Source of the DNA: a virus
Virus record (IMG/VR): IMGVR_UViG_3300009149_000012
Coordinates: 62,001 to 126,000 of that record
Length of the DNA: 64,000 nucleotides
Direction: 5' to 3' (one strand)
The translations under genes were made by a program, and so were the position numbers. Numbering within the stretch: the first letter of the stretch is position 1; each line of letters opens with the position of its first letter. Under the pieces are notes generated by a model that worked only from the letters and a program-made list of their open reading frames with translations, was not told where the DNA came from and ran no database searches. Positions 17,324 through 62,920 of the stretch are shown piece after piece.

Positions 17324-20300
17324 TTACCTCCGTCCCACGCTGCGCTCCGAGAACTGACCATGTCGGCGACTACGAGAGCGCTGGTAACGCGTAACACTCA
17401 TAGCTGACGCCGCATAAGGGGCTCCTGCAAACCTTCCGCCCTGAGCGATGAACTTCTTGTCTCCACGCCGGGCTTCACTCAAATGGACCGCTCGAACGAA
17501 GGCGTCGCTGAGATCGTCATGGGCGTCGACCACTTTCGGGGCCTCGACCACCACGAGGTTCTTGCTCACCTGGCGGGCCTGCAAGCTCAAAAGCTCTTGG
17601 ATGAGTTGGGAGTGCTTCTTTCCGACCAAGGGGTAGTCATACAGGCGCAAACGCTTGTCGTACATCAAGAGCTTGGCTTGCTGGAAGATCTTCGAAGACT
17701 GGTCACGGGTGAAGTATTGGCTGTTAAACTGCTTGAGCCCCATCTTGTGGAGCCGTTGCTCCAATGGGATGCCGTTCCACCGGTCGAACAGTCCGTCCGT
17801 GATGTAGAAGTGCTTGCAAAGAAGAGCGATCCAATCGGCGATTTCGTCGAAATCTAGCCGCTCGACATTCGAAAGCGTCTTGGCGTAGTTGGAGAGAGGT
17901 TCAACCAGGTGCGGGTTTGACTCACGCCAGTCGACCCCAGCCTGCCAGGTCTCATGGTAGTCGAGAACGACGTCCTCACCCTCAGGGTGGGTGATCACGA
18001 TGCCGGTGCCGTCGCCGACCAAACCAATGTCGATCCCCATCTGGTGAGGCGAGCGGGGCAGACCCCGGGTATGAGGCCGAAGATCTGGATCGATGCAGTC
18101 AAGCAAATCGGATTCACGCTCGATCCAACCCCGCATCTGATCGGAGAACATGGCGCCGTGCTCGACCATGAACACGGTCGGGTCGGCGTGGTACTTCTGC
18201 TTGTAGTAGGAAGACTCGACCGTGGGATTGATCTCCCACGTGGGGGCCTGGACAGCCAACAGGTTCTCGGAACCCTCTCCACCCCGCATCGCCTGGTCAA
18301 ATTTCTCCCAAAACAGACCGCTCTTGCCCAAGGGGCTGGAGATGAGGATGGTGCGAGCCTCGACAGGGCCGATTGCCACCTGGTTGTCTTCGGGGTCCTT
18401 CGGTGAGAAAGAAGCCGTCGACGGGGTGATGGCCTCGTAGATCTCTTTTGCAGAGGACGTTCCGTTATCCTGGAAGTGGGCGACTTCGTCCAAGATGATG
18501 ATGACGTTGCCGGCGCCACGAAGACCACGAGCGATGCAAGACTTGAACGTGACCCGGAGACTCGACTTGCCTTGGAAGCTCTGGAATGAGCCATCCTTGA
18601 CCCTGTTGATGGATCCGAACCGGTCGATCTCGTAGGGGGTACGGAAGTGGACGTGCGTCTGCGTGTTGTTGGCGATGTAGGGCGTGAAGTATTGGCACTT
18701 GGCAAGATGGCTCGCCACGTCGTTGTACAGAAGCCCCGCCTGATCCTTGTCGGTCGCCACCGAGATGATCTGCACCCGGTTGCCGTTGGGCAGACCGTAG
18801 TATTCCTGCGGATTGTACAGGTTCAGAAGCCGGTACACCTCGTAGCTCGCAAAGATGGCACTGAGGGTCGTGTTGTGGTTGGTCAAGCCGTTGGCTACGA
18901 AAGACGCCCCATCAGGCACGTTCAGATCGTAGACATGATCTTCACCCTCCTCGACAGACACGACAGGGTCGAAGAAATAGTCTTGGTGCAGCAAGTCCTC
19001 GAAGTGCTGCATTTCATCTTTCCCAGCGCCTAGTTCCCGAGCCACTTTCAGGGCCTCGACCATCCTGGTGTAAGTCAGATCCTCTTTTGAGCCAGGTTTG
19101 CACACGTTGCCCAAGGCTTTTCGGAGATGGGAACGGCCCCACCCCAGTTCCCCTCTCGCAGAATTACGCTTCGGAACGGACTTCAACAAGTTCCGCACCC
19201 TAGTGTACTGGTGGGGTACGCTCTCCGTGTTCGATTTACCTTCCTGGGCACGTTCAAGAGCTTCAAGCAAAGGTCCTTGCTTCTTCTCCGAGTCGAACCC
19301 CACAAGCTGGGCAAACCGACGTCGGGATCTCACACCCTTGATGCTCAGGTTAGCGTAGTGCCTTTTGGTTTTTCGGTTCCACTTGCGACCGATGTTCGAG
19401 ACGATCCCCAGGTTCAGGAGAAGTACCTGAACCTCATGGGCCAACCGAAAACTGGCCGAAGAGAACGTGATGTGGCGGCCCCCGCATTCGGCAGATCCGT
19501 CCGTCTCGAAAAGCCCCCGTAGAAACGCACACACCACATGGCGGGGCGACCGAAGGACCACCCACGGCACCATCTTGTCATAACGCCCACAGTCCGTCAC
19601 CCATCCGAGGTTAGCCAAGAACCGGCGCATCCCCACACTAGGAAATTCCAGTCGACCTGTCCCTTCTGTTCGCTGGTCCATCTGGACTCGATGTGACCCC
19701 AACAAGCTGTTGAACAGTTCTTTGAGCCGATCCCACGTCTCAGGGTGTTCCACTGTCATGGCGACACCCTGCGTGTGCGCCCAGCTACCGTCTCCGACAA
19801 GGTAGCCAAGAAGCAAGCCCCACTTTTCACTGAAAGTGTCAGGAAAAGACAGGTCCTTGTACCCGTCCGTGTTGTGGAACGGCTTAAGATCCACAAGGTC
19901 CTGAGACCATAGGTCAGTGGTCCGATTGACTGCCAGGTAGTCGCCGGGCCGGATGTTGTCCAGATACTTCCATTCCACGCAGCCTGACTCAGCCATCACC
20001 CTGACCCGGTGATTGCCCGTCCCCCGAACAGAGTAACCAGACCAACTCTTCACCGAGAAGGTTGGCTTCACACCACCGTCATAGAAAAAGGCGGATCTCG
20101 CTTGTCGCCCACCCTCTTGAGCCACCCCCACATTGAAGGATGTGGTGTCTTCCTCCGAAGCGCACGCCAAGTCCTTGATAGGGAACAAACCCAAGTCTGT
20201 CAAAACCAGGGTGTCGCCTGAAACACACTTGCCGGCCCGACGGCCGATCGGCAGGATAAGCTCACGCCGCTCGTGATCTTGTTCCCCGATGTTGCAGCGC

Positions 20301-20629
20301 CCCTCTTCGAACAGGTACTTCAGGAACTCTTTTTCGGTGAACCGATAGAGCACCTTGGTGTTGAACATATCCGTGACAGGAACGTTCTGTTCGGTGTCGT
20401 CTAGCTCCAAATGGTAGTAGAGCTTGACAAGAAAACGCTGGCCTGGGTACAGCCGCATCGACAGCCCCCACGGCTGTTCGATGTAGTCGATGATACTGAA
20501 GATGCGAGGGCCCTTTTGGCCTCCATCTTGAATTGTGCTTGAGGTGGTGATCGCATCACGCCGTGCGACCTGACCGGCTTTACGGATGAGGGAGCTTACG
20601 CCCGCCCCTTTGGTTTTGCGAGGCGGCAT
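17324..20629 (-). CDS. terL: terminase large subunit with intein in its P-loop
   Basis: 1101 codons; without the 452-codon intein about 649 aa. The ATPase Walker A is GRRAGK/TTLSAI, split by the intein after Lys134. Walker B is VIIILDEVAHF and a coupling motif ISSPLGKSGLFW follows. The nuclease domain shows HQMGIDIGLVGDGTG (first Asp) and DAHDDLSDAFVRAV (late acidic pair). The enzyme drives ATP-dependent packaging of DNA into the prohead through the portal and cuts the concatemer. Activity must wait for splicing, since the insertion disrupts the nucleotide-binding loop. The C-terminus is Arg/Ser-rich. Next gene upstream is a candidate small subunit. Confidence 0.96.
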   Translation of the reverse strand: MPPRKTKGAGVSSLIRKAGQVARRDAITTSSTIQDGGQKGPRIFSIIDYIEQPWGLSMRLYPGQRFLVKLYYHLELDDTEQNVPVTDMFNTKVLYRFTEKEFLKYLFEEGRCNIGEQDHERRELILPIGRRAGKCVSGDTLVLTDLGLFPIKDLACASEEDTTSFNVGVAQEGGRQARSAFFYDGGVKPTFSVKSWSGYSVRGTGNHRVRVMAESGCVEWKYLDNIRPGDYLAVNRTTDLWSQDLVDLKPFHNTDGYKDLSFPDTFSEKWGLLLGYLVGDGSWAHTQGVAMTVEHPETWDRLKELFNSLLGSHRVQMDQRTEGTGRLEFPSVGMRRFLANLGWVTDCGRYDKMVPWVVLRSPRHVVCAFLRGLFETDGSAECGGRHITFSSASFRLAHEVQVLLLNLGIVSNIGRKWNRKTKRHYANLSIKGVRSRRRFAQLVGFDSEKKQGPLLEALERAQEGKSNTESVPHQYTRVRNLLKSVPKRNSARGELGWGRSHLRKALGNVCKPGSKEDLTYTRMVEALKVARELGAGKDEMQHFEDLLHQDYFFDPVVSVEEGEDHVYDLNVPDGASFVANGLTNHNTTLSAIFASYEVYRLLNLYNPQEYYGLPNGNRVQIISVATDKDQAGLLYNDVASHLAKCQYFTPYIANNTQTHVHFRTPYEIDRFGSINRVKDGSFQSFQGKSSLRVTFKSCIARGLRGAGNVIIILDEVAHFQDNGTSSAKEIYEAITPSTASFSPKDPEDNQVAIGPVEARTILISSPLGKSGLFWEKFDQAMRGGEGSENLLAVQAPTWEINPTVESSYYKQKYHADPTVFMVEHGAMFSDQMRGWIERESDLLDCIDPDLRPHTRGLPRSPHQMGIDIGLVGDGTGIVITHPEGEDVVLDYHETWQAGVDWRESNPHLVEPLSNYAKTLSNVERLDFDEIADWIALLCKHFYITDGLFDRWNGIPLEQRLHKMGLKQFNSQYFTRDQSSKIFQQAKLLMYDKRLRLYDYPLVGKKHSQLIQELLSLQARQVSKNLVVVEAPKVVDAHDDLSDAFVRAVHLSEARRGDKKFIAQGGRFAGAPYAASAMSVTRYQRSRSRRHGQFSERSVGRR
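18872..20227 (-). mobile_element. LAGLIDADG intein in the terminase Walker A motif
   Basis: 452 codons. Begins CVSGDTLVLTDLGLFP (block A) with GTGNHRVRV as block B, and ends DHVYDLNVPDG, FVANGLTNHN before Thr. Endonuclease motifs are LLLGYLVGDGSW and AFLRGLFETDGSAE. Terminal HN and +1 Thr fit a standard splicing mechanism. The site, between Lys and Thr of the P-loop, is a known type of intein hotspot. Confidence 0.95.
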
Positions 20630-51905: not shown

Positions 51906-53489
<1,584 letters not shown>

Positions 53490-54094: not shown

Positions 54095-54266
54095 TCTTTG
54101 ATCGATATTCGTCACGAAGTAGCGGGAGGGAGTAGCGAAACGATTGCTCGGCCATGGCGCTTCGGGACAGACCCTTGGCCTTGGCGGCGGCTTCCAACAG
54201 TTCCAAGGCTTCCTCACTCAGCGCGATGGAAAGCTTGACCTTCTTCTTTCGCTTCGGAGCTTTCAT
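54090..54266 (-). CDS. small basic ribbon-helix-helix-like protein, 58 aa
   Basis: Starts MKAPKRKKKVKLSIALSEEA, then LELLEAAAKAKGLSRSAMAE. The strand (KVKLSIALSEE) plus two helices fits a CopG/Arc-type ribbon-helix-helix DNA-binding protein. The A of its ATG is the A of the CCA end of the tRNA-Ser(UGA) gene, so it has no separate ribosome site. Could be a phage regulator. Confidence 0.65.
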   Translation of the reverse strand: MKAPKRKKKVKLSIALSEEALELLEAAAKAKGLSRSAMAEQSFRYSLPLLRDEYRSKS

Positions 54267-54351
54267 GGCGGAAAACAGAGGAGTCGAACCCCCAACCTTT
54301 CGGTCGCCCCGGTGTTCAAGACCGGTTGCCCACCACTGAGCAGTGTCTTCC
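54266..54351 (-). tRNA. tRNA-Ser(UGA)
   Basis: Class II tRNA. Acceptor GGAAGAC with GTTTTCC; anticodon arm CCGGT CTTGAAC ACCGG (anticodon TGA); long variable arm around GACCGAAAGGTT; T-loop GTTCGACT. CCA is encoded and merges with the ATG of the next gene. Confidence 0.93.
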
Positions 54352-54355
54352 GTAG

Positions 54356-54438
54356 AGGAGAATAGAGGAGTCGAACCTCCGACCTTGCGGTCGCCCCAGT
54401 GTTCGAAACTGGTTGCCAGCCACCTAGCGGTATTCTCC
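54356..54438 (-). tRNA. tRNA-Ser(CGA)
   Basis: Class II tRNA. Acceptor GGAGAAT with ATTCTCC; anticodon arm CCAGT TTCGAAC ACTGG (anticodon CGA); variable arm GACCGCAAGGTC; T-loop GTTCGACT. CCA is not encoded; discriminator base appears to be T. Only a few bases separate it from tRNA-Ser(UGA), so a dimeric precursor is likely. Confidence 0.9.
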
Positions 54439-54460
54439 ATGGGCCTTGCGGCCCAACCCA

Positions 54461-55966
54461 TCACCAGTTCTTGCTAATGCGGTTCTTGGTGATGCGTTTC
54501 TTGACGGGATCCGAGTTTGTGCTTTCCGATTCAGGCGGGGAAACCTCGTAGACGGGCGTGTTGGCATCCGGCGTGTGGACTGCCGGGACCACGAACATCG
54601 AAGCCGCAGCATCCGAGTCGACCGCAAAGTCCTCCGAAAGCTGCTGTTGAGAAGCGTTGCAGGACACAACCCCAAGCTCCTGAAGGTCGGCAGAGGCATC
54701 CGAATCGGCCGAGAAGGTTCCGTAGCCTGCCGACATGCCCCGGCCCACGCTGCGCAGGTAGCCTTGGCCTTCGTTGAAGTTCTCGCTGGTTGCCATCCGT
54801 TGACCAAGACGCTGGCTCACGTTGGCGACCCCGACATGACCCCGGCGCTGGGCGCTTTCAGTGTGGACACGCATGATTGACTGCGCCTGGGCGAAGTTGC
54901 CGTTGTTGGCCTGTTCTTCGGCTTCAAGCTGCGCCTTGGCCGTTTGAGCCAAGACCACGATGGCGTCGACGTCCTTGGTCGGCAAGTCCTGCTGTTCGCC
55001 GTTCTTGACGAACCGGACCTTGGCTTTGATGTCTTCGTTGTGATCCAACTTTTTGCCGTCCTTGTCGAGGCAACTGTACTTGACGTTCACCTCGAAGGCG
55101 TTGACGGCACGAGGGAAAGCTTGCTTTTGCTCTTTGAACTTGATCAAGAACACGAGGTGACGCGTTTCCTCAGCGAGAAGGTCAGGCGTCTGGACACTCA
55201 CTTCGCCGGTCACTTCCTCTTCAACGTCGGCATCCGAGATGCACTCAACGATCTGGTGACCGTTGAGGGGTTTGACTTCCAACGTGACGTCGGTTGCGTA
55301 GGTCGACACCAGCCCGCCAAGCTCTTTGCCGAAGGCGGCGAGAGCCGAGTCAGGGTTCTCGATGTAGGCGTAGTTGCCCTTGCCCTCTTTGGACCACTCG
55401 GTCAGAAGCTTTTGGTCGCAGTCACGGGCGTTGCCGTAGCCGAAAGCGCTGACAGACACCCGACCTCGGTTGGCTTCCAAGAGCTTGAGCAGTTCAGGAG
55501 CGCGCTGAGCGACGCCGCAGTTGGCGTAGCCGTCCGTGAACATGATGGCCCGGTGGATGATGTCCGAGCCCAGGTCCATGGAGTTCATCAACTCGACGGC
55601 CTTCAGGAAGCCGCCAGAAAAGTTGGTGCTCCCGCCAGGGGTGAGCTTGTTGACTTCGGCCTTGAGCAGTTCCTTGGTCTGAGGCGTGATCTCGGTCGGG
55701 GGGTAGGACCGCACACGGTCATCAAACGCCACGAGCCCACAGTAGTCGCCTTCCTGAAGGTGGTCGATGAGCTTGAGGACGGAACGCTTGGCGTACTCCA
55801 TCTTGTTGCCCATGCCCATGCTGCCGGACACGTCCATGACCGGCATCACGAAGATGCGGGGCCGTTTGGCGGTCGCCGACGGGGCGGTGAGGCTGATCAC
55901 AAGGTGGGCGTCGGTGTCGACGTCATGACGGACTTGGTCAAATGTATGGCGAGCTTCAATCTTCAT
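54461..55966 (-). CDS. von Willebrand factor A-domain protein, 501 aa
   Basis: VWA domain from about residue 38: VMPVMDVSGSMG (MIDAS DxSxS), TPGGSTNFSGG (MIDAS Thr) and IMFTDGYAN (third MIDAS Asp), VSAFGYG. The middle is beta-rich (VEEEVTGEVSVQTPDLLAEE), as in YfbK-like VWA proteins, and residues 350-430 are helical. The end is Ser/Asp-rich, then basic KKRITKNRISKNW. No signal peptide or MoxR-type ATPase partner seen. Role in a phage is unclear; a metal-dependent protein-binding scaffold or part of a host-directed function is possible. Confidence 0.88.
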   Translation of the reverse strand: MKIEARHTFDQVRHDVDTDAHLVISLTAPSATAKRPRIFVMPVMDVSGSMGMGNKMEYAKRSVLKLIDHLQEGDYCGLVAFDDRVRSYPPTEITPQTKELLKAEVNKLTPGGSTNFSGGFLKAVELMNSMDLGSDIIHRAIMFTDGYANCGVAQRAPELLKLLEANRGRVSVSAFGYGNARDCDQKLLTEWSKEGKGNYAYIENPDSALAAFGKELGGLVSTYATDVTLEVKPLNGHQIVECISDADVEEEVTGEVSVQTPDLLAEETRHLVFLIKFKEQKQAFPRAVNAFEVNVKYSCLDKDGKKLDHNEDIKAKVRFVKNGEQQDLPTKDVDAIVVLAQTAKAQLEAEEQANNGNFAQAQSIMRVHTESAQRRGHVGVANVSQRLGQRMATSENFNEGQGYLRSVGRGMSAGYGTFSADSDASADLQELGVVSCNASQQQLSEDFAVDSDAAASMFVVPAVHTPDANTPVYEVSPPESESTNSDPVKKRITKNRISKNW

Positions 55967-55976
55967 GGGATTCCTC

Positions 55977-56004
55977 CGTACACGTTATCGGTCGGTGCCA
56001 TCAA
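55977..56004 (-). promoter_or_regulatory. promoter candidate TTGATG-16-TGTACG
   Basis: TTGATG (55999-56004) and TGTACG (55977-55982) with 16-nt spacing, just upstream of the VWA gene (start 55966, GGAGGA ribosome site). Same spacing as the other TTG-16-TGTA pairs. The remaining stretch up to 56159 shows no gene or RNA that can be supported. Confidence 0.45.
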
Positions 56005-56159
56005 CGCAGAGCCGGACATGCTCCCATAATCAATGACGTGCCTTACGATCGTCCTCAGTGTCTCCAAAACCCTTTCGGGCGCGATTCACTGTACGGGGAC
56101 TCAACCTATGAAGGCGCATCCCCTTGCAGAAGCCATCCTCTCAAAGATGACTTTTGATG

Positions 56160-56417
56160 TCAAGCGTGTTTTTCACACCGCCACTGAAGTCGACCAAGAG
56201 AGTCTCGGCCGATGATCCGACGTGTCGCCGGTTCTCCACACAGAAACTTGAGTTTGCTAGACCGACACTTGTAAATCTTCACATGGCGCCTGCCCCGGGG
56301 CAGGCCCCCGGTTTGAGCGTAACCGCACACGAGGCACTTGGAGCACTGCCAGTAGCGATCTGGCTTTTCACCAAGCGGGATTCCTCGAAGGGGCTGCCAG
56401 TCATGTTCGCAATCCAT
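56160..56417 (-). CDS. zinc-binding hypothetical protein, 85 aa
   Basis: MDCEHDWQPLRGIPLGEKPD then YWQCSKCLVCGYAQTG, with YKCRSSKLKFLCGEPATRRI and WRCEKHA: enough Cys/His for two metal sites. Starts just downstream of tRNA-Ser(GGA). Not recognised further. Confidence 0.7.
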   Translation of the reverse strand: MDCEHDWQPLRGIPLGEKPDRYWQCSKCLVCGYAQTGGLPRGRRHVKIYKCRSSKLKFLCGEPATRRIIGRDSLGRLQWRCEKHA

Positions 56418-56436
56418 GCGGCCGACACTAGCACAG

Positions 56437-56523
56437 CGGAAGCAGGAGGTATCGATCCCCAAGCAGCGTGAGCCGCTCGTACACGTTTCCAACGTGTCCC
56501 GTACCCTGTACGGTTCAGCTTCC
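56437..56523 (-). tRNA. tRNA-Ser(GGA)
   Basis: Class II. Acceptor GGAAGC/GCTTCC; D-arm CCG TACAGGGTA CGG; anticodon arm ACACG TTGGAAA CGTGT (anticodon GGA); variable arm AGCG GCTCA CGCT; T-loop ATCGATA instead of TTCGANN and one mismatch in the T-stem. Discriminator G, no CCA. Some weakness in the T-arm. Confidence 0.75.
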
Positions 56524-56784
56524 AGGCAGGGTCTCGTAGGTCGCCAATTGCTGGGACCACAAGACCCCTTCGATCCACCCAAGGGCTCCCGCTGCGGCGA
56601 GCGAGTTGCCTTCCCGGGCGATTCTCAAAACGTTCGGGATCATCCAGAGCACGTGGCACAGGACTTCCATCCGTTCCGGGATCTTGCCCGGGAGCGTGTA
56701 TTGCTTCGGAGTAGCACCCGCCTCTTGAAGCAAATCACGGTACTTCTCAAGAGCCCGCTCGAAATGAGGATCACTTGGTGCCAA
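56515..56784 (-). CDS. helical hypothetical protein, 89 aa
   Basis: MAPSDPHFERALEKYRDLLQ, MEVLCHVLWMIPNVLRIARE and ALGWIEGVLWSQQLATYETL: an all-helical small protein. Overlaps the HNH gene start by 14 nt on one side and the tRNA-Ser 5' end by about 9 nt on the other. Unknown. Confidence 0.65.
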   Translation of the reverse strand: MAPSDPHFERALEKYRDLLQEAGATPKQYTLPGKIPERMEVLCHVLWMIPNVLRIAREGNSLAAAGALGWIEGVLWSQQLATYETLPGS

Positions 56785-57286
56785 GGTACCACGTCCATTG
56801 CTCGGGAGCGTTGTTCATCGGGATGGGAGGCGGGGTGAGCGGCAGCGTCTTGGGCTGGACCGGCTTTTTCAGCAGCCGCATCCCTGCTTGCTGCGGCGTG
56901 CGACCCGCTTTGCGGTTGTTGCACGGGTAGCAACACGTCACGATGTTCGTCCACACAGTCTTCCCACCTTGGGAGCGAGGGATGACGTGGTCGTAGTTGA
57001 GCTTGCTCATCGTCGCCTTCGTTCCGCAATACTGGCAAACGAACTTGTCCCGGGTCATCACGTTGATCCGAGAGAACTTCACAGCCTTTTTGCGAGCCGA
57101 AACCGTCTTCGTGAGTCGAGCCACGGCGGGAATGCTCATCTCCACCGAAGGACTACGGACCGTTTCCTCATACTCTTCCAGCACCTCGATCTTGCCCATC
57201 CACAGCAAGCACACGGCTTGCTCCCAGGGTACGATCCGGTGAGGCTGGAAGCCTTGAGTCAGGATAAGTGTGTGGGATGAAGCCAT
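56771..57286 (-). CDS. HNH endonuclease, 171 aa
   Basis: HNH core: RDKFVCQYCGTKA (C84, C87), LNYDHVIPRSQGG (D99, H100), TNIVTCCYPCNNRKAGR (N and CxxC). N-terminal 80 residues begin QGFQPHRIVPWEQAVCLLWM, matching the RNA ligase-like/HNH family often found beside phage genes. C-terminal tail Pro-rich. Could be a homing-type endonuclease or a DNA packaging nuclease. Lies next to the tmRNA gene. Confidence 0.9.
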   Translation of the reverse strand: MASSHTLILTQGFQPHRIVPWEQAVCLLWMGKIEVLEEYEETVRSPSVEMSIPAVARLTKTVSARKKAVKFSRINVMTRDKFVCQYCGTKATMSKLNYDHVIPRSQGGKTVWTNIVTCCYPCNNRKAGRTPQQAGMRLLKKPVQPKTLPLTPPPIPMNNAPEQWTWYLGTK

Positions 57287-57327
57287 GATAAGCCTACCGT
57301 TTCTTTTTCCGCATCATTCAGCCTTGT

Positions 57328-57337
57328 TTACACCGTG
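57328..57337 (-). promoter_or_regulatory. GGTGTAAAC motif between tmRNA and HNH gene
   Basis: ACGGTGTAAAC about 45 nt upstream of the HNH ATG at 57286. The stretch 57287-57345 holds no other feature. Confidence 0.45.
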
Positions 57338-57345
57338 GAATTAGT

Positions 57346-57701
57346 GGAGTCGCCGGGAATCGAACCCGGGTCCGAAAAACATCGTTTCAATCCGTCTACG
57401 TGCGTAGCCCTTCTACCCTCGGGCGGGGTTTGCCGATCTTCCAACCGACATGGGGATTTTCATTGTCTTGATCGGGGGTTATCGACACGTCCCTCAATTT
57501 TGCCCCGAAGCATCCTGTGTGGGTTGACGTCGCCGGGGTACTCAGGACCCTTCCCGTTTGACGGACACTACGCTGCTGCGAGCATCAGGTTACCATTATC
57601 GTTGGCAATTGACGTTCCACCTGTTTGATCATGGCTGTTCAGGTGGCTCAGCCAGCACGCGAGATCGAACCTCCATCCTCCGTCGAAACCAAGTCGACCC
57701 C
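57346..57701 (-). ncRNA. ssrA: tmRNA
   Basis: 356 nt. 5' end GGGGTCGACTTGGTTTCGAC and 3' end with GGGTTCGATTCCC and CGACTCC form a tRNA-like domain; the acceptor has G1-G2-G3.U, i.e. the G3-U70 alanine identity pair. A mRNA-like segment encodes tag ANDNGNLMLAAA, GCC at 57606 to TAG at 57568. CCA is not encoded. Rescues stalled ribosomes with SmpB and tags their products for ClpXP-type proteolysis. A smpB gene is not in this window. Confidence 0.95.
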
Positions 57702-57717
57702 AAATGAGTCAAGAGAA

Positions 57718-57727
57718 GTTACACCGA
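57718..57727 (-). promoter_or_regulatory. GGTGTAAC motif ahead of the tmRNA
   Basis: TCGGTGTAAC ends 17 nt upstream of the tmRNA 5' end, with TTGCCG 15 nt before TGTAAC. The precursor would be trimmed to the mature 5' end. Confidence 0.4.
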
Positions 57728-57746
57728 GTTGATGCACCCGGCAAGC

Positions 57747-57833
57747 TGGTAGGGGTGACAGGAGTCGAACCTGCACGCCACGAAGGGCACCTGAACTTAA
57801 ACCAGGCGTGTCTGCCAGTTTCACCACACCCCC
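57747..57833 (-). tRNA. tRNA-Leu(UAA)
   Basis: Class II. Acceptor GGGGGTG with CACCCCT (G1-U72 wobble), anticodon arm CCTGG TTTAAGT TCAGG (anticodon TAA), variable arm TGCCCTTCGTGGCG, T-loop GTTCGACT, CCA encoded. Directly follows the stop of the 67-aa gene. Confidence 0.93.
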
Positions 57834-57834
57834 G

Positions 57835-58038
57835 TCAGACGCAGGCTTCCCCAGCCTGGGAGAGCCTCAAGACACTGTGAGGCACGTCGCACTGCAAGAC
57901 GTAGTCGAACCGAGTCGAGACCACGTAGTGCAGCAACCCCTTCTCGACCAAGGCATCCCGCACCCGCTTGGTGGGGAAGCGACCCTGCATGGTCTTGAAG
58001 TATTCGAGAGCGGCTCGTTGGGGGGTTGTGATCTTCAT
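57835..58038 (-). CDS. hypothetical winged-helix-like protein, 67 aa
   Basis: MKITTPQRAALEYFKTMQGR, then FPTKRVRDALVEKGLLHYVV and STRFDYVLQCDVPHSVLRLS: helix-helix-helix-strand order of a small winged-helix domain. Begins directly after the 38-nt leader. Not recognised further. Confidence 0.65.
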   Translation of the reverse strand: MKITTPQRAALEYFKTMQGRFPTKRVRDALVEKGLLHYVVSTRFDYVLQCDVPHSVLRLSQAGEACV

Positions 58039-58073
58039 GCACCCTCTAAGACAGCCGAGCCGCCTCAATCAAC
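58036..58073 (-). promoter_or_regulatory. conserved 38-nt leader (copy 3 of 3)
   Basis: GTTGATTGA, CTTAGA 16 nt after TTGATT, AGGGTGC, ATG; lies between tRNA-Leu(CAA) and the 67-aa gene. Confidence 0.55.
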
Positions 58074-58080
58074 CGAAAGT

Positions 58081-58167
58081 TGGTGGCAACGGGGGGAGTC
58101 GAACCCCCACGCTCACATGGAGCACCTGGGTTTGAGCCAGGCGTGTCTGCCATTTCACCACGTTGCC
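58081..58167 (-). tRNA. tRNA-Leu(CAA)
   Basis: Class II. Acceptor GGCAACG with CGTTGCC, anticodon arm CCTGG CTCAAAC CCAGG (anticodon CAA), variable arm TGCTCCATGTGAGCG, T-loop GTTCGACT, CCA encoded. Confidence 0.94.
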
Positions 58168-58358
58168 AAAAGCGAGAGCTAACAGGACGGAGCAGAGATG
58201 CTCGGGTAGGGGCGATGAAAATGGAGTAACCGACTTGATAGTGGAAGAACTGTCGGTGTTCCAGATTGAAGTTTTTCGCACACTTTCCCGATTTGCCGTG
58301 AGCGTCTTTCAACGCTTATTGTAGGTAGGTCTTCTCTCGCCTCGTTTCCGCCCCCGGA
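58168..58358 (-). other. 190-nt non-coding gap
   Basis: Between tRNA-Leu(CAA) and the 167-aa gene. Contains GCGT/ACGC hairpin near 58310 without T-run. A TTG-started frame crosses the tRNA and is rejected. No other feature can be supported. Confidence 0.5.
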
Positions 58359-58862
58359 TTACTCCGGGAGGGTTACGTTCATTTCGATTTCGGTCAGGTT
58401 GCCCTTGGCGATGGCGGCTCGAATGACCGCCGCTTCTTTCGCCGCCTGGTTGGCGAACTTCAAGGCTTGTGCCTGGGTGACCATGCGCTTGGCCCGGACC
58501 TCGTTGGGGTCACGGGTGAGCGTTTCGTCCCGGTAGCTGTAGCGGTCTTTCTTGACCCCGGCGACGCTTCGCCACATCTTCTCCAACCGACCCGCACCGC
58601 CGACGCTCTTGATCGCTTCGGTGAGGGTCATCGTGTCGGAGCCAACTTCAACACGAACCTGCATGTTGTAGTCGGTCTGCGCCGTCTGAAGCTTGGCGAC
58701 CATCACATCATACGCATGGAACTTGTCAGCGATCTGCTGAGGCGTTTCCTTGTCGTCATCCTCGAAGGCGTGAAGCGAGCCATCGAAAAGGGAAGCCGTC
58801 GTGTCTCGAACCATCACAGTTCGTTTGATTGCGTCTTTCAGAATGTGTCCGGTAACTTTCAT
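58359..58862 (-). CDS. hypothetical protein, 167 aa
   Basis: MKVTGHILKDAIKRTVMVRD; helical middle (ETPQQIADKFHAYDVMVAKL) and end (AQALKFANQAAKEAAVIRAA). Regular helices and strand pairs but no motif. GAGGA ribosome site and a TCGGTGTAGAT motif upstream. Confidence 0.65.
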   Translation of the reverse strand: MKVTGHILKDAIKRTVMVRDTTASLFDGSLHAFEDDDKETPQQIADKFHAYDVMVAKLQTAQTDYNMQVRVEVGSDTMTLTEAIKSVGGAGRLEKMWRSVAGVKKDRYSYRDETLTRDPNEVRAKRMVTQAQALKFANQAAKEAAVIRAAIAKGNLTEIEMNVTLPE

Positions 58863-58880
58863 GGTCGTCCTCTGATCTGA

Positions 58881-58890
58881 TCTACACCGA
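58881..58890 (-). promoter_or_regulatory. GGTGTA-type motif ahead of the 167-aa gene
   Basis: TCGGTGTAGA about 18 nt before the ATG, at the 3' end of the upstream 242-aa gene. Confidence 0.45.
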
Positions 58891-59610
58891 CGGGTCAGTG
58901 TCGGCTGAATTTTCGGTCGTGAAAGAAGCGCCCGCCTGGTTCAAATGATGAGCTTGGGCCGACGTCAACGCAAATTCGGTGGGAATCCCATCCATAAGGG
59001 CGGCAGCGGCATGAAGCGGCACGTCAGGGAAAAGCTGGCGGTACGCTCGAAGGAAAGCGATCCGGTCTGACACCGAAGTGAGGGTGAGATTGAAACGTTC
59101 CTCTTGAATACCGACGGTCAGTTCCTGGTTATTCTCTTGGTAGGGCTCATCGGGTACCCCAGCCGTAGTCACAGACGGAAGAGCCTCCCGATACGGTGCA
59201 GGAGCAAGCCCAGAGAGCCTGCCAATACGGGGTGAGCGTCGAACAGGCGGGTGGTCGCCCTCTCGAAAGGGTGTCGGGGCCGAACCTCGAATCGGCTGCA
59301 CCATGGCTTCAGCAAGGTCTGCCATCGCTTGCGGGTCGTGTATGATCTGTTCGACAAGGCTCGGATCCATGATCGGAGCGCGAGGTTCCGTACGGGTCTC
59401 CGTGAAGGGAGGCGCAACGTCTCCGCTCATGACCAACCCCCGGGGCCTCACATCACTGATATCGCCCGAATACTGAATCGGCTCACCCGGTTGCCGGGGG
59501 TACCCAGGCGGCGCCAAGCTCGAATAGATCCGAGCACTTTGGTCACGGAGCTTGAGCGCTGCCTTGTCCTCGGCTTCCTGCACGAGTTGTATCAACCGCT
59601 GCTTGCTCAC
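58882..59610 (-). CDS. hypothetical protein, 242 aa
   Basis: GTG start (MSKQRLIQLVQEAEDKAALK)  supported by GGAAGGAA. Pro/Arg-rich disordered-looking middle (residues 30-150) and a helical C-terminal part (ISDRIAFLRAYRQLFPDVP-like; SDRIAFLRAYRQLFPDVPLH). Not recognised. Overlaps the SGNH gene end by about 68 nt. Confidence 0.55.
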   Translation of the reverse strand: MSKQRLIQLVQEAEDKAALKLRDQSARIYSSLAPPGYPRQPGEPIQYSGDISDVRPRGLVMSGDVAPPFTETRTEPRAPIMDPSLVEQIIHDPQAMADLAEAMVQPIRGSAPTPFREGDHPPVRRSPRIGRLSGLAPAPYREALPSVTTAGVPDEPYQENNQELTVGIQEERFNLTLTSVSDRIAFLRAYRQLFPDVPLHAAAALMDGIPTEFALTSAQAHHLNQAGASFTTENSADTDPSV

Positions 59611-60115
59611 GATGTAATTCCTTCCAGATCCACGTTGCCCAAATCTCTCGTCCCTTGAAGGTCGGGTGAAGTTGGTCCTCCCACATGGGAATGGTCACAG
59701 GCCTGGAATCAAGATACACCACGCCGGTTTCCAAGATGAGGTTGCGGACGTAGGTCGGACGGATCGACAAGGGAAGCTTGGGCATCCCCACCCACACGAG
59801 CCGTATGCCAGTTTGCCCCATCCGACGGTGGAACCGAGCCATGAAGGGCCCCGTCTGCACGTGAGGCTTCATGTAGGCGTCGTTGGCGCCGAGCACGATG
59901 ACGACCAACGTAGGCCGAAACCGGCGCAAAGGCGTCAGGTCTGCTGTCGACCACGAGATGATGCTGGTACCTGGCACCGTGTCAGATCCGAAGGCATGGC
60001 CCTCGGTGACCGCAAGCTTTCACAAGGGCTCCACGAGACCATGCGCCAGCGAATCACCCGTGAGCCAGATTCGGTCCCCCGGATGCACGAGCGCTGCGAG
60101 TAGCAACGGCCACAT
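59543..60115 (-). pseudogene. SGNH/GDSL hydrolase with in-frame UGA at codon 32
   Basis: From ATG 60115 (TGATG overlap with the upstream gene): MWPLLLAALVHPGDRIWLTG then DSLAHGLVEPL, a signal-like start and GDSL block I. Codon 32 is TGA (60020-60022). The same frame continues KLAVTEGHAFGSDTVPGTSI, LVVIVLGANDAYM (block III GxND) and WEDQLHPTFKG (block V DxxH). So all catalytic blocks (Ser, Asn, Asp-His) are present in one frame but split by UGA. Without readthrough the downstream part lacks its nucleophile. Esterase, possibly acting on host envelope or exported. Confidence 0.75.
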
Positions 60116-60285
60116 CAATAGCCGTCGCTCATGTAGCGTTTCCGCCATTGGGCGTAGTTGAGCCACTCGACGAGAATGCTTTCACATTCGGGGCAGTGCT
60201 CAACGTATCGCCGATGTTGGTGCCACACGTGCTTGCACTTGCAACACTTGAAGCGGGGTTTGATTTTCTTGCTAACTAATCCCAT
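60115..60285 (-). CDS. zinc-ribbon protein, 56 aa
   Basis: MGLVSKKIKPRFKCCKCKHV, then WHQHRRYVEHCPECESILVE. Two CxxC pairs form a zinc ribbon; basic N-terminus. ATG shares its A with the CCA end of tRNA-Ile, so there is no own ribosome site; TGATG couples it to the SGNH frame. Confidence 0.7.
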   Translation of the reverse strand: MGLVSKKIKPRFKCCKCKHVWHQHRRYVEHCPECESILVEWLNYAQWRKRYMSDGY

Positions 60286-60366
60286 GGTCCGCTGAGAAGG
60301 AATCGAACCTTAAGCTCTGGCACCTTATAAGGATGCTGCTGGCAAGCCCAGCCAGCGCCTCAGCGG
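60285..60366 (-). tRNA. tRNA-Ile(UAU)
   Basis: Acceptor CCGCTGA with TCAGCGG, anticodon arm GCATC CTTATAA GGTGC (anticodon TAT, reads AUA), T-arm AAGG TTCGATT CCTT, D-arm with a large loop and only three stem pairs. CCA encoded. A UAU anticodon for Ile is rare in bacteria, which use modified CAU, so it may fill a host gap. Confidence 0.82.
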
Positions 60367-60545
60367 GCAGCCTCAAGCTCTTCCACTATGATGAGCTTGT
60401 CCAGCCGCCGCCGACCCCGCCGAAGCCCCTTCTTCAGTCCCCATTGACACGGGTGACCGGGCTTGGAGTACCTTGCCAGGCTATGGGTTCCTGTGAGGCC
60501 ACGGTTGACGCGAGCTTGTTTGATGACGCGTCTTCCAGCACCCAT
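60360..60545 (-). CDS. small basic hypothetical protein, 61 aa
   Basis: MGAGRRVIKQARVNRGLTGT then GLKKGLRRGRRRLDKLIIVE. Very basic. ATG in a TAATG overlap with the upstream gene. Its last codons overlap the tRNA-Ile 5' end by 7 nt. Possibly nucleic-acid binding. Unknown. Confidence 0.55.
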   Translation of the reverse strand: MGAGRRVIKQARVNRGLTGTHSLARYSKPGHPCQWGLKKGLRRGRRRLDKLIIVEELEAAR

Positions 60546-60742
60546 TACGAGGCCCCTTTCTGGCACTGTTTGCAGAGCGCCCTGTTGTCAGGGGCCGTGC
60601 CCCGGTAAACCTTTTTGTGGCCGCATTCCAACGTCAAGGTGAAGATGTCGATCCCCCGCCGCCAGTTGAGGGTCTTGGGGGTGACGGACATCGAGTCACG
60701 TTCCTTGGTGACCTTACAGTCGACGATCTTGCGATAAGGCAT
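60545..60742 (-). CDS. small zinc-binding protein, 65 aa
   Basis: MPYRKIVDCKVTKERDSMSV, then LTLECGHKKVYRGTA and LCKQCQKGAS: CxH plus CxxC as a single metal site in a beta-rich fold. CCGGTGTAGG promoter-like box upstream. Coupled to the basic 61-aa gene. Unknown. Confidence 0.65.
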   Translation of the reverse strand: MPYRKIVDCKVTKERDSMSVTPKTLNWRRGIDIFTLTLECGHKKVYRGTAPDNRALCKQCQKGAS

Positions 60743-60749
60743 GCGATGT

Positions 60750-60777
60750 CCTACACCGGGCCTCAATCCCCAATCAA
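60750..60777 (-). promoter_or_regulatory. promoter candidate TTGATT-16-TGTAGG
   Basis: TTGATT (60772-60777) and TGTAGG (60750-60755) with 16-nt spacing on the minus strand, upstream of the 65-aa zinc gene (60742). Confidence 0.55.
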
Positions 60778-61077
60778 ATGGTCCCAAGTGGTCTTCAGAG
60801 ATTCGGGGGGCTCGGGAGGCTCGGGGGGTTCCAAGGGTTTGACTTCAACGTGAATGGTTCCGCCTGCATCGACGATGATCTTGATCCCACGTTGAGCCCA
60901 ACTCAAGGAAGGCTCAACGATAATGAGCTTCGGAAAGGGGCCTTCTGCGACCACCGCTGCCGCACGTGGTGACAGATTGAATGCATTGATCATGGCCGAC
61001 ACCATGCACTGGTTTGCCGGTGCCAAAGGGTACCGTGTCTGCGGCTCCCAACCATCGAGATAGACTTTGAGCGGCAT
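60763..61077 (-). CDS. hypothetical protein, 104 aa
   Basis: MPLKVYLDGWEPQTRYPLAP, a helical middle (QCMVSAMINAFNLSPRAAAV), then a beta end (IKIIVDAGGTIHVEVKPLEP) and a PPEPPEPPE tail. Not recognised. GGTGTAAAT motif about 15 nt upstream, next to a tRNA gene. Confidence 0.6.
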   Translation of the reverse strand: MPLKVYLDGWEPQTRYPLAPANQCMVSAMINAFNLSPRAAAVVAEGPFPKLIIVEPSLSWAQRGIKIIVDAGGTIHVEVKPLEPPEPPEPPESLKTTWDHLIGD

Positions 61078-61085
61078 GGGGTTGA

Positions 61086-61095
61086 TTTACACCGG
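61086..61095 (-). promoter_or_regulatory. GGTGTAAAT motif ahead of the 104-aa gene
   Basis: CCGGTGTAAA at the 3' end of the tRNA with UAG anticodon. Confidence 0.4.
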
Positions 61096-61169
61096 TACCC
61101 AGAGCGGGATTCGAACCCGCACCTGTACACGTTCTAAGCGTGTTGCCTCTGCCGTTGGGCTACCTGGGC
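61096..61169 (-). tRNA. tRNA with UAG anticodon (Leu, class I shape)
   Basis: Acceptor GCCCAGG with TCTGGGT, D-arm GCC..GGC, anticodon arm ACACG CTTAGAA CGTGT (anticodon TAG, reads CUA Leu), short variable loop ACAGGT, T-arm GCGGG TTCGAAT CCCGC. Leu tRNAs normally have a long variable arm; this one is class I. CCA not encoded. Confidence 0.7.
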
Positions 61170-61183
61170 TCTTCTGAGAAATG

Positions 61184-61258
61184 TGGTGCACGGCGTGGGA
61201 ATCGAACCCACCTAAACTAGCATGTCGAGCTAGCGCTCTCCCAGAGAGCGAGCCGTGC
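61184..61258 (-). tRNA. tRNA-Val(GAC), unusual C33
   Basis: Acceptor GCACGGC with GCCGTGC, D-arm GCTC TCTGGGA GAGC, anticodon arm CTAGC TCGACAT GCTAG, T-arm GTGGG TTCGATT CCCAC, CCA encoded. The 7-nt loop puts C at position 33 (normally U) and GAC as anticodon. Structure is otherwise complete, so identity is likely but not certain. Confidence 0.65.
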
Positions 61259-61262
61259 GTAG

Positions 61263-61334
61263 TCGGGGTGACGAGAATCGAACTCGTCATCGCTTCTACC
61301 CGAAAGAAGTGGCCCACCCTGAGCCTTCACCCCG
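61263..61334 (-). tRNA. tRNA-Pro(CGG)
   Basis: Acceptor CGGGGTG with CACCCCG (C1-G72, usual for Pro), anticodon arm CTTCT TTCGGGT AGAAG (anticodon CGG, G37), T-arm GACGAG TTCGATT CTCGTC. No CCA. Confidence 0.85.
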
Positions 61335-61365
61335 TATCTCAAAACATTGGAACCAGAGGAGAGAA

Positions 61366-62025
61366 TCACCTTAGCCATTTCCGAATGGCGTTATCGCTCA
61401 CACCATACTTCCGACCCACCCCAGTGAATCCCAGTTTTTTGATTTCCTCTTGAAGCACGGATAGGGTTGGCCGCTTGACTCTCCGGTATGGGAACTGGGC
61501 ACACCTCCCGCACTGACCCCCCTGTTGCCCTACAAGAGCACCACACTTGCAAGAATGTATTTTTCTCGCATTTCTTCCTGCATGTGTCGGTAGCTGGCTG
61601 GCACAATTGGGGCAAACAAGACGTAGATTCTCTATACGATGATCGTCGGCCACACCGTTTTTATGATCCAGCACCATAACCAAGGACTGCCCACGCCAAA
61701 CGGGGGGCAGCCCGCAGACAGAGCACTCATTTTCCAGCACTTTTTCTTGTAGCAATCGCCGCTTTAAGTGACCACGACCAAAGGACGAGTTTTCAACTAG
61801 AACAGAATCAAGGGGTTTCTTAGGCCGAATCCCATGAGGATGCACTCCGAAATGAGAAACATCGACACCCTCCTCAGCCAAACGACGGTGAAGGGTTCGA
61901 CAGTTTCCCCCTTTGTTAACCAAACCGAAATGTGCCAAAACCTCGGTATAAGTGTGGCTTGAAGCTACCAAAGACCTGAATTCATCCGAGGTCAGGCCCC
62001 AAATAGGGCTGGTCCGTTTACGCAT
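61366..62025 (-). CDS. HNH endonuclease with flanking DNA-binding regions, 219 aa
   Basis: N-terminal region LTSDEFRSLVASSHTYTEVL and RTLHRRLAEEG resembles helix-turn-helix. HNH core: NECSVCGLPP, LVMVLDHKNGVADDHRIENL, RLVCPNCASQLPTHAGRNAR. A second Cys group (CKCGALVGQQGGQCGRC) is a zinc ribbon. C-terminal HTH (FTGVGRKYGVSDNAIRKWLR). Pattern fits homing-type HNH endonucleases (HNH_3/AP2-like group). Inserted amid tRNA genes. GGTGTGGA box lies upstream. Confidence 0.9.
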   Translation of the reverse strand: MRKRTSPIWGLTSDEFRSLVASSHTYTEVLAHFGLVNKGGNCRTLHRRLAEEGVDVSHFGVHPHGIRPKKPLDSVLVENSSFGRGHLKRRLLQEKVLENECSVCGLPPVWRGQSLVMVLDHKNGVADDHRIENLRLVCPNCASQLPTHAGRNARKIHSCKCGALVGQQGGQCGRCAQFPYRRVKRPTLSVLQEEIKKLGFTGVGRKYGVSDNAIRKWLR

Positions 62026-62068
62026 GGGGTAGAGCTTACTCCACACCGCAAACAAAGTCTACCCCTAG

Positions 62069-62139
62069 CACCGAGAGCTAGATTCGAACTAGCACAAAGG
62101 GCTTCAAAGGCCCTCGTCCTACCATTAGACGATCCCGGC
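62069..62139 (-). tRNA. tRNA-Gln(UUG)
   Basis: Acceptor GCCGGGA with TCTCGGT, anticodon arm AGGGC CTTTGAA GCCCT (anticodon TTG), T-arm GCTAG TTCGAAT CTAGC. No CCA. Confidence 0.88.
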
Positions 62140-62182
62140 ATTGGTCGCAAAGTCCGGTGTCTTGCCGTTAGACGACCCTGGC
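62140..62182 (-). pseudogene. 5' half of a decayed tRNA-Gln-like gene
   Basis: GCCAGGGTCGTCTAACGGCA, then ACACCGGACTTTG, i.e. acceptor, D-arm and first part of the anticodon arm with CTTTG as in Gln. The 3' half is missing and the sequence continues directly into tRNA-Gln(UUG). Confidence 0.65.
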
Positions 62183-62188
62183 AATAGT

Positions 62189-62255
62189 CGCGACGAAGGG
62201 ACACGATCCCTTGCGGTGCCGGGTATGGACCGGCCCTCCAACCTCTGGACGTCGC
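62189..62255 (-). tRNA. tRNA-Met(CAU)-like gene, degenerate
   Basis: Acceptor GCGACG with CGTCGC (six pairs), anticodon arm GCCGG TCCATAC CCGGC (anticodon CAT, C33), T-arm AAGGG ATCGTGT CCCTT with atypical loop, poor D-arm. Could be a diverged Met or Ile2 tRNA, or decaying. Confidence 0.45.
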
Positions 62256-62261
62256 GTTTGG

Positions 62262-62334
62262 AGTCTCCGGTGGGAGTCGAACCCACAATCATCTGGTTCG
62301 AAGCCAGAAGCTCTGTCCATTGAGCCACGGAGAC
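62262..62334 (-). tRNA. tRNA-Arg(UCG)
   Basis: Acceptor GTCTCCG with CGGAGAC, anticodon arm TCTGG CTTCGAA CCAGA (anticodon TCG), T-arm GTGGG TTCGACT CCCAC. No CCA. Confidence 0.9.
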
Positions 62335-62338
62335 GTAG

Positions 62339-62410
62339 CCCCCACGGAAGGATTCGAACCTTCATTGCAGGATTCGTAGTCCTGGATCCTATCCATTGGA
62401 TGACGTGGGG
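62339..62410 (-). tRNA. tRNA-Arg(ACG)
   Basis: Acceptor CCCCACG with CGTGGGG, anticodon arm CAGGA CTACGAA TCCTG (anticodon ACG), T-arm GAAGG TTCGAAT CCTTC. Discriminator G, no CCA. A34 would need deamination to inosine by host TadA. Confidence 0.9.
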
Positions 62411-62414
62411 TTGT

Positions 62415-62490
62415 TGGAACCTACACCGGGACTCGAACCCGGATTTCAGCCGTCGGAAGGCTACGTGATGATCCATTTCACTATGTAGGC
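62415..62490 (-). tRNA. tRNA-Arg(CCG)
   Basis: Acceptor GCCTACA with TGTAGGT, anticodon arm TAGCC TTCCGAC GGCTG (anticodon CCG), T-arm CCGGG TTCGAGT CCCGG, CCA encoded after T. Confidence 0.88.
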
Positions 62491-62496
62491 ATTCAG

Positions 62497-62567
62497 CGCC
62501 CCCGGCAGGACTCGAACCCGCACCGAACCAGATAGAAGCTGGCTTGCCGTCCATCGGCGTCAGGGGC
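62497..62567 (-). tRNA. tRNA-Arg(UCU)
   Basis: Acceptor GCCCCTG with CGGGGGC, anticodon arm GCCAG CTTCTAT CTGGT (anticodon TCT), T-arm GCGGG TTCGAGT CCTGC. No CCA. Adjacent to the stop of the 85-aa gene. Confidence 0.9.
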
Positions 62568-62825
62568 TTATTTCAGCAGGTCGGTAGCCTTGATGGGCTT
62601 ACCCTTCTCGGTCTCGACCAACTCGAACTCGACCACTTCCCAAGATGCAGGGATCTTGGCGGGCCGGACAACCGAACCTCGGTACCCTCTAAGGTGAAGC
62701 TTGAAGTGGGTTTTCACACCGCACAACCGATCCCAGGACTTGCCAATTTCGGTGAAGTGGGGGTTGTAGCCACCGGATGAGAAGAGCCCGGTTTTCGTGT
62801 CCCGAACCTTGAAGATGGTCTTCAT
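62568..62825 (-). CDS. hypothetical protein, 85 aa
   Basis: Starts MKTIFKVRDTKTGLFSSGGY. Beta-rich with SVVRPAKIPASWEVVEFELV near the end. The pattern (KVRD..TGLFS.GG, HL..Y..(A/P)..(P)..WEV(V/I)E(F/Y)E) recurs in small phage proteins. Not assigned. ATG chosen over longer frames that run through tRNA-Cys. Confidence 0.75.
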   Translation of the reverse strand: MKTIFKVRDTKTGLFSSGGYNPHFTEIGKSWDRLCGVKTHFKLHLRGYRGSVVRPAKIPASWEVVEFELVETEKGKPIKATDLLK

Positions 62826-62844
62826 GTAGGGGACTACACTGAAT

Positions 62845-62920
62845 TGGAAGCACGGGTGGGAATCGAACCCACGAATACCTGTTTTGCAAACAGGGCCCTT
62901 TGCCATTTGGGTACCGTGCC
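62845..62920 (-). tRNA. tRNA-Cys(GCA)
   Basis: Acceptor GGCACGG with CCGTGCT, anticodon arm CCTGT TTGCAAA ACAGG (anticodon GCA), T-arm GTGGG TTCGATT CCCAC, CCA encoded after T. Confidence 0.9.

Follow-up and report, generated by a model that had tools for sequence, protein, structure and literature searches.

The window analyzed here is a stretch of 64,000 bp, covering positions 62,001–126,000 of a 148,881-bp IMG/VR record, and carries on its minus strand a gene for a transfer-messenger RNA (tmRNA, ssrA), which rescues stalled ribosomes in bacteria. At window positions 57344–57701 (minus strand), ARAGORN predicts a one-piece tmRNA with the tag ANDNGNLMLAAA. The Rfam model RF00023 matches positions 57342–57701 on the same strand over its whole length (model positions 1–374 of 374) with 113.1 bits and E = 2.2e-43, the gathering score being 47. 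This full-length covariance model match, which the sequence-only reading had named as a check, together with the ARAGORN call confirms its proposal of a phage-encoded, single-chain tmRNA with all core parts. The mature body up to the discriminator base A73 occupies 57345–57701; the earlier reading had found the right locus, but its low end at 57346 was one nucleotide short and left out the discriminator.

The tRNA-like domain is complete. The 5′ strand of the acceptor stem (GGGGUCG, 57695–57701, minus strand) forms seven of seven pairs with the 3′ strand (CGACUCC, 57346–57352, minus strand), the stem shows compensatory changes in relatives, and its third pair is G3·U70, as expected from the alanine identity claimed before. 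The T-arm CCGGG-UUCGAUU-CCCGG (57353–57369, minus strand) has a T stem with five of five pairs. After discriminator A73 (57345) the sequence continues with CUA; the gene thus has no encoded CCA, again in agreement with the earlier observation. Upstream of the tag, a pseudoknot PK1 (UGGCUG/CAGCCA and CCACCUG/CAGGUGG, 57617–57654, minus strand) is built from perfectly complementary helices of 6 and 7 bp, and its score was reached by 0/60 and 0/100 shuffles. The tRNA-like fold and the pseudoknot, whose absence would have spoken against a tmRNA, are thus both found. Downstream of the tag, two candidate pseudoknots, GUCCUG/CAGGAU with CCCCGG/UCGGGG (57503–57548, minus strand) and GUCGAUA/UGUCGGU with CCGAUC/GAUCGG (57433–57486, minus strand), are suggestive only; in a search for PK2–PK4 the three best candidates are each weak singly, and combined they are equalled or surpassed by 2 of 40 shuffles. 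The score of 113 bits lies below that of most sampled bacterial tmRNAs (mostly 150–216 bits), which is mainly due to the variable mRNA-like region.

The gene is placed within a large tRNA array. Besides the tmRNA, ARAGORN gives 44 tRNA calls for the contig, which all fall into the region from 116 to 138 kb and span window positions 54266–62920 and, beyond the window, contig positions 126565–137991. Their anticodons cover most amino acids; one call is without an assigned amino acid, and no tRNA-Tyr was called by ARAGORN on the 148,881-bp contig. A tRNA-Leu(taa) gene at 57747–57833, 45 nt upstream of the tmRNA, and a tRNA-Leu(caa) gene at 58081–58167 were identified on the minus strand by both ARAGORN and Rfam, which bears out the tRNA genes described around the tmRNA. 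Furthermore, most relatives whose loci were read carry a tRNA-Leu gene within 1.5 kb of their tmRNA. The motif GGTGTAAC reported just upstream of the tmRNA does exist at 57718–57725, but across the contig it shows no enrichment: the 149 kb contain 16 copies of GGTGTAA, on both strands and often inside genes, which is near chance, and only within the window alone is GGTGTAAM mildly over-represented (5 occurrences versus 1.27 expected). The motif was therefore rejected as a special signal.

Directly downstream of the tmRNA lies an open reading frame for an HNH endonuclease (56771–57286, minus strand; phrog_16726, 8.2e-32; PF14279, 4.5e-16). Also encoded on the minus strand of the window are a GroEL-like chaperonin (51906–53489; phrog_5725, E = 1.2e-143), a 501-amino acid VWA-domain protein near the tRNA array (54461–55966), for which no relative was found in viral contigs when it was used as a query, a 926-amino acid open reading frame with weak matches to Hint/intein-splicing domains (6053–8833) and the large terminase subunit (17324–20629). 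The latter contains an intein-like insert with LAGLIDADG and intein-splicing domains at residues ~150–586. An NAD-dependent ligase, a RecD2-like helicase and a ribonucleotide reductase are likewise encoded on the contig. The terminase is 58–68% identical to that of contigs of up to 529 kb and 46% identical to that of the uncultured phage LR745208.1 (485 kb). Since its terminase relatives reach such sizes, the contig probably represents part of the genome of a huge phage.

Distribution and descent of the tmRNA among terminase relatives

A tmRNA is present in 27 of 47 terminase-related contigs, the window's own not counted, where the contigs are records rather than independent events, since near-identical copies occur among them (for example G002/G005, G020/G021, G024/G036 and G037/G043). 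RF00023 exceeds its cut-off in nine of the twelve close terminase relatives (58–68% identity), the other three being contigs of 49, 86 and 104 kb, and in 18 of 35 further contigs of at least 100 kb obtained by a wider terminase-alignment search. The RF00023 search, by which a permuted form could be missed, detected no tmRNA in 20 of the 47 contigs, some of them near 400 kb, and therefore the gene is common but not universal in this clade and hence dispensable. An exact search with the tag DNA pattern gave no viral relatives.

Among 24 distinct copies from the clade, all seven pairs of the acceptor stem and G·U at 3:70 are present in every copy. The acceptor pairs 2-71, 4-69, 5-68 and 6-67 as well as the T stem vary with compensation (in G007 the T stem was placed one base off by the script), with five pair types each at 4:69 and 5:68. 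PK1 has the same H-type topology with different helix sequences in 23 of the 24 copies, although several of these pseudoknots, taken one by one, are equalled by a few shuffles. CCA is encoded in four of the 24 copies. The distances between tmRNAs are correlated with those between terminases (Mantel r = 0.50 for 24 copies and 0.53 for the inner 22, reached in none of 2000 permutations), and the two trees have several clades in common. The distance correlation, the shared clades, the invariant G3·U70, the compensatory changes and the kept PK1 suggest that the tmRNA is a phage gene of long standing, passed on mostly by vertical descent. One contig (G040) is discordant, its tmRNA falling inside the main clade and its terminase being distant, which suggests some transfer.

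Integration often takes place at ssrA in bacteria, and phages can carry fragments of it (PMC9004378), so a tmRNA on a phage contig might be a recently captured host gene, acquired for instance by imprecise prophage excision and carried as a neutral passenger. For the gene studied here such an origin is extremely unlikely, since tmRNA distances track those of the terminase, base changes are compensatory, relatives also have the gene in a tRNA array, the copies share only about 50% identity and the Rfam score lies below that of the sampled bacterial genes. What the sequence-only reading lacked is this context, namely a clade of huge phages in which the tmRNA is ancestral.

The tag and its degron end

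The embedded tag frame that had been read from the letters is present at 57568–57606 (minus strand) and agrees with the ARAGORN tag. It runs from the resume codon GCC through ANDNGNLMLAAA to the stop UAG, with the codons GCC AAC GAT AAT GGT AAC CTG ATG CTC GCA GCA GCG TAG. Across the clade, 23 distinct tags of 9–15 residues were obtained and every frame is intact. Two of the tags were read by hand, ANDNALAAAA at L090, which ARAGORN missed, and ANDNAYAAVA at L196, where its frame was wrong. The start AND is found in 21 of the 23 tags; 21 end with AA and two with VA. The residues before the terminal pair differ widely, the ends including LAAA, AIAA, KAAA, LVA, GLAA, QAA, AAAA, VAA, EAA, MAA, RAA and KAA. 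On a deep branch of the clade, the tmRNAs L200 and L201 (contigs G043 and G037) have a tag called as DETQYAAAA, whose start is not AND.

The LAAA end of the window's tag had been considered unusual and possibly handled differently by host proteases. This view is not supported, because seven of 58 bacterial tags also end with AAA and the terminal Ala-Ala is intact; LAAA is a known tag variant, which was seen in other viral contigs as well. The 58 bacterial calls come from one-piece tmRNAs sampled in two phyla, which were selected by way of the loci L049 and L054, and comprise 39 LAA, 7 YAA, 7 AAA, 3 FAA, 1 IAA and 1 SAG ends; the SAG end stems from a locus with two calls, of which it is the second and a doubtful one. 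ClpX relies mainly on the terminal Ala-Ala, and a change of the antepenultimate leucine causes only a modest rise in KM (PMC7652416). Because Ala-Ala is kept and the leucine change costs so little, the tag of the window tmRNA should still be degradable.

For the clade as a whole, the end of the tag could have been tuned by the phages in such a way that tagged proteins escape host proteases or are handled differently by them. A leucine or valine at the antepenultimate position is indeed rarer in the phage set, with 6 of 23 distinct tags versus 34 of 50 distinct bacterial tags (Fisher p = 0.001), where the tags are non-independent within both sets, the phage tags being related and the bacterial sample being narrow with at least one doubtful call. 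However, significance is lost when L, V, I and M are pooled (p = 0.19), AAA ends occur in bacteria, and 21 of the 23 tags keep the Ala-Ala on which ClpX mainly depends, so such tuning appears unlikely. Of modest interest is the drift of the degron end across the clade while the ANDN start stays fixed.

The tag was also thought to be able to point to the host group by comparison with bacterial tags. Tags of the type ANDN...LAAA are present in Bacillota, Acidobacteria and one Rhodospirillales genome; they are too widespread to indicate any single host group, and a host assignment from the tag was given up.

SmpB and the proposed role of the phage tmRNA

SmpB (PF01668) was found neither on the contig of the window nor on 17 further records and 35 contigs. 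Of the 17 records, the three behind L020, L031 and L036 were chosen by their tags, which leaves 50 terminase-related phage records, none with a match; an SmpB too divergent for PF01668 would escape this search, and most phage records may be incomplete. As a control, the search recovered SmpB from both of the bacterial genomes examined and from 10 of the 14 control genomes. Therefore, the SmpB of the host is presumably used by the phage tmRNA. A ClpP of the phage as private protease was considered as well and rejected, none being present on the contig and only two of 21 relatives having one. These two relatives are tmRNA-bearing and encode a ClpP-family protein at 143590–144006 (G009, L262) and 202709–203116 (G051, L263), the latter gene being located ~2 kb from the tmRNA.

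In trans-translation, a matured and alanylated tmRNA is brought to ribosomes on truncated mRNA with the help of SmpB and EF-Tu. For the phage tmRNA, the expressed transcript would be trimmed by host enzymes, which would also add CCA, and the alanyl-tRNA synthetase of the host would charge it with alanine through G3·U70. Host SmpB and EF-Tu would then bring it to ribosomes stalled on broken mRNA, and such stalls would be frequent once the infection destroys host mRNA and tRNAs. The ribosome would resume at GCC, add (A)ANDNGNLMLAAA, stop at UAG and be recycled, and the tagged fragment would go to ClpXP of the host or a similar protease. For the phage, the main benefit could lie in the recycling of ribosomes, in the clean-up of proteins or in the recycling of amino acids. 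In the mycobacteriophage Wildcat, the tmRNA is the most highly expressed lytic gene of that phage (PMC7474061), consistent with a real function in the course of infection.

The lack of an SmpB match on the phage records would also suit an RNA that acts mainly as a decoy by competing with the host tmRNA for SmpB, the tag being incidental. Such competition was put forward for phage DS6A, whose RNA consists of the TLD only, and a TLD RNA of the DS6A type inhibits tmRNA (PMC4131195; PMC11915505). In contrast, the RNA described here has a full mRNA-like domain with PK1 and an intact tag frame, and the conserved start and Ala-Ala are kept across 23 distinct tags; since a decoy would not need them, this explanation is very unlikely. 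The preferred reading is that the window encodes a functional-looking tmRNA which belongs to the tRNA array of a huge phage. In this reading, the gene has long been present in the lineage, where it is retained among the phage's own means of translation, and is not a stray host fragment; a probability of about 0.85 is assigned to it.

The one-piece tmRNA of bacteria (ssrA, RF00023) resembles this RNA in the tRNA-like domain with G3·U70, the T-arm, PK1, the resume codon and the Ala-Ala tag end. In contrast, the phage copy is more divergent (113 bits), lacks CCA, is not accompanied by smpB on the records and is located in a tRNA array. Phage-carried tmRNAs are known from the mycobacteriophages Bxz1 and Wildcat, Bacillus phage G and Streptomyces phage Annadreamy (PMC4131195; annotation), but blastn of the window tmRNA gave only 22–37 nt matches at the 3′ end to any phage record. 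The tmRNAs of huge phages with genomes over 200 kb described by Al-Shayeb et al. (2020) are similar in kind, although SmpB was reported there (PMC7162821) and none was found here; LR745208.1 has no tmRNA in the RF00023 search. The Melnitz/pelagimyophage tmRNA is likewise phage-encoded but is a permuted two-piece form with a riboswitch, in contrast to the one-piece RNA of the window, and tmRNA genes occur in 402 of 18,146 phage genomes (PMC9004378). With phage tmRNAs already known by the hundreds, the single tmRNA of the window is real but ordinary.

A more far-reaching possibility, which is doubtful at present, is that the clade has long kept a tmRNA without SmpB of its own and uses that of the host, the ANDN start being fixed and the degron end being free to be tuned to the proteases of each host. 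What the locus adds is a covariation-supported, apparently vertically inherited tmRNA family in a little-described lineage of huge phages. Its 23 distinct natural tags represent material for studying the role of a phage tmRNA without its own SmpB as well as the limits within which a degron end can drift.
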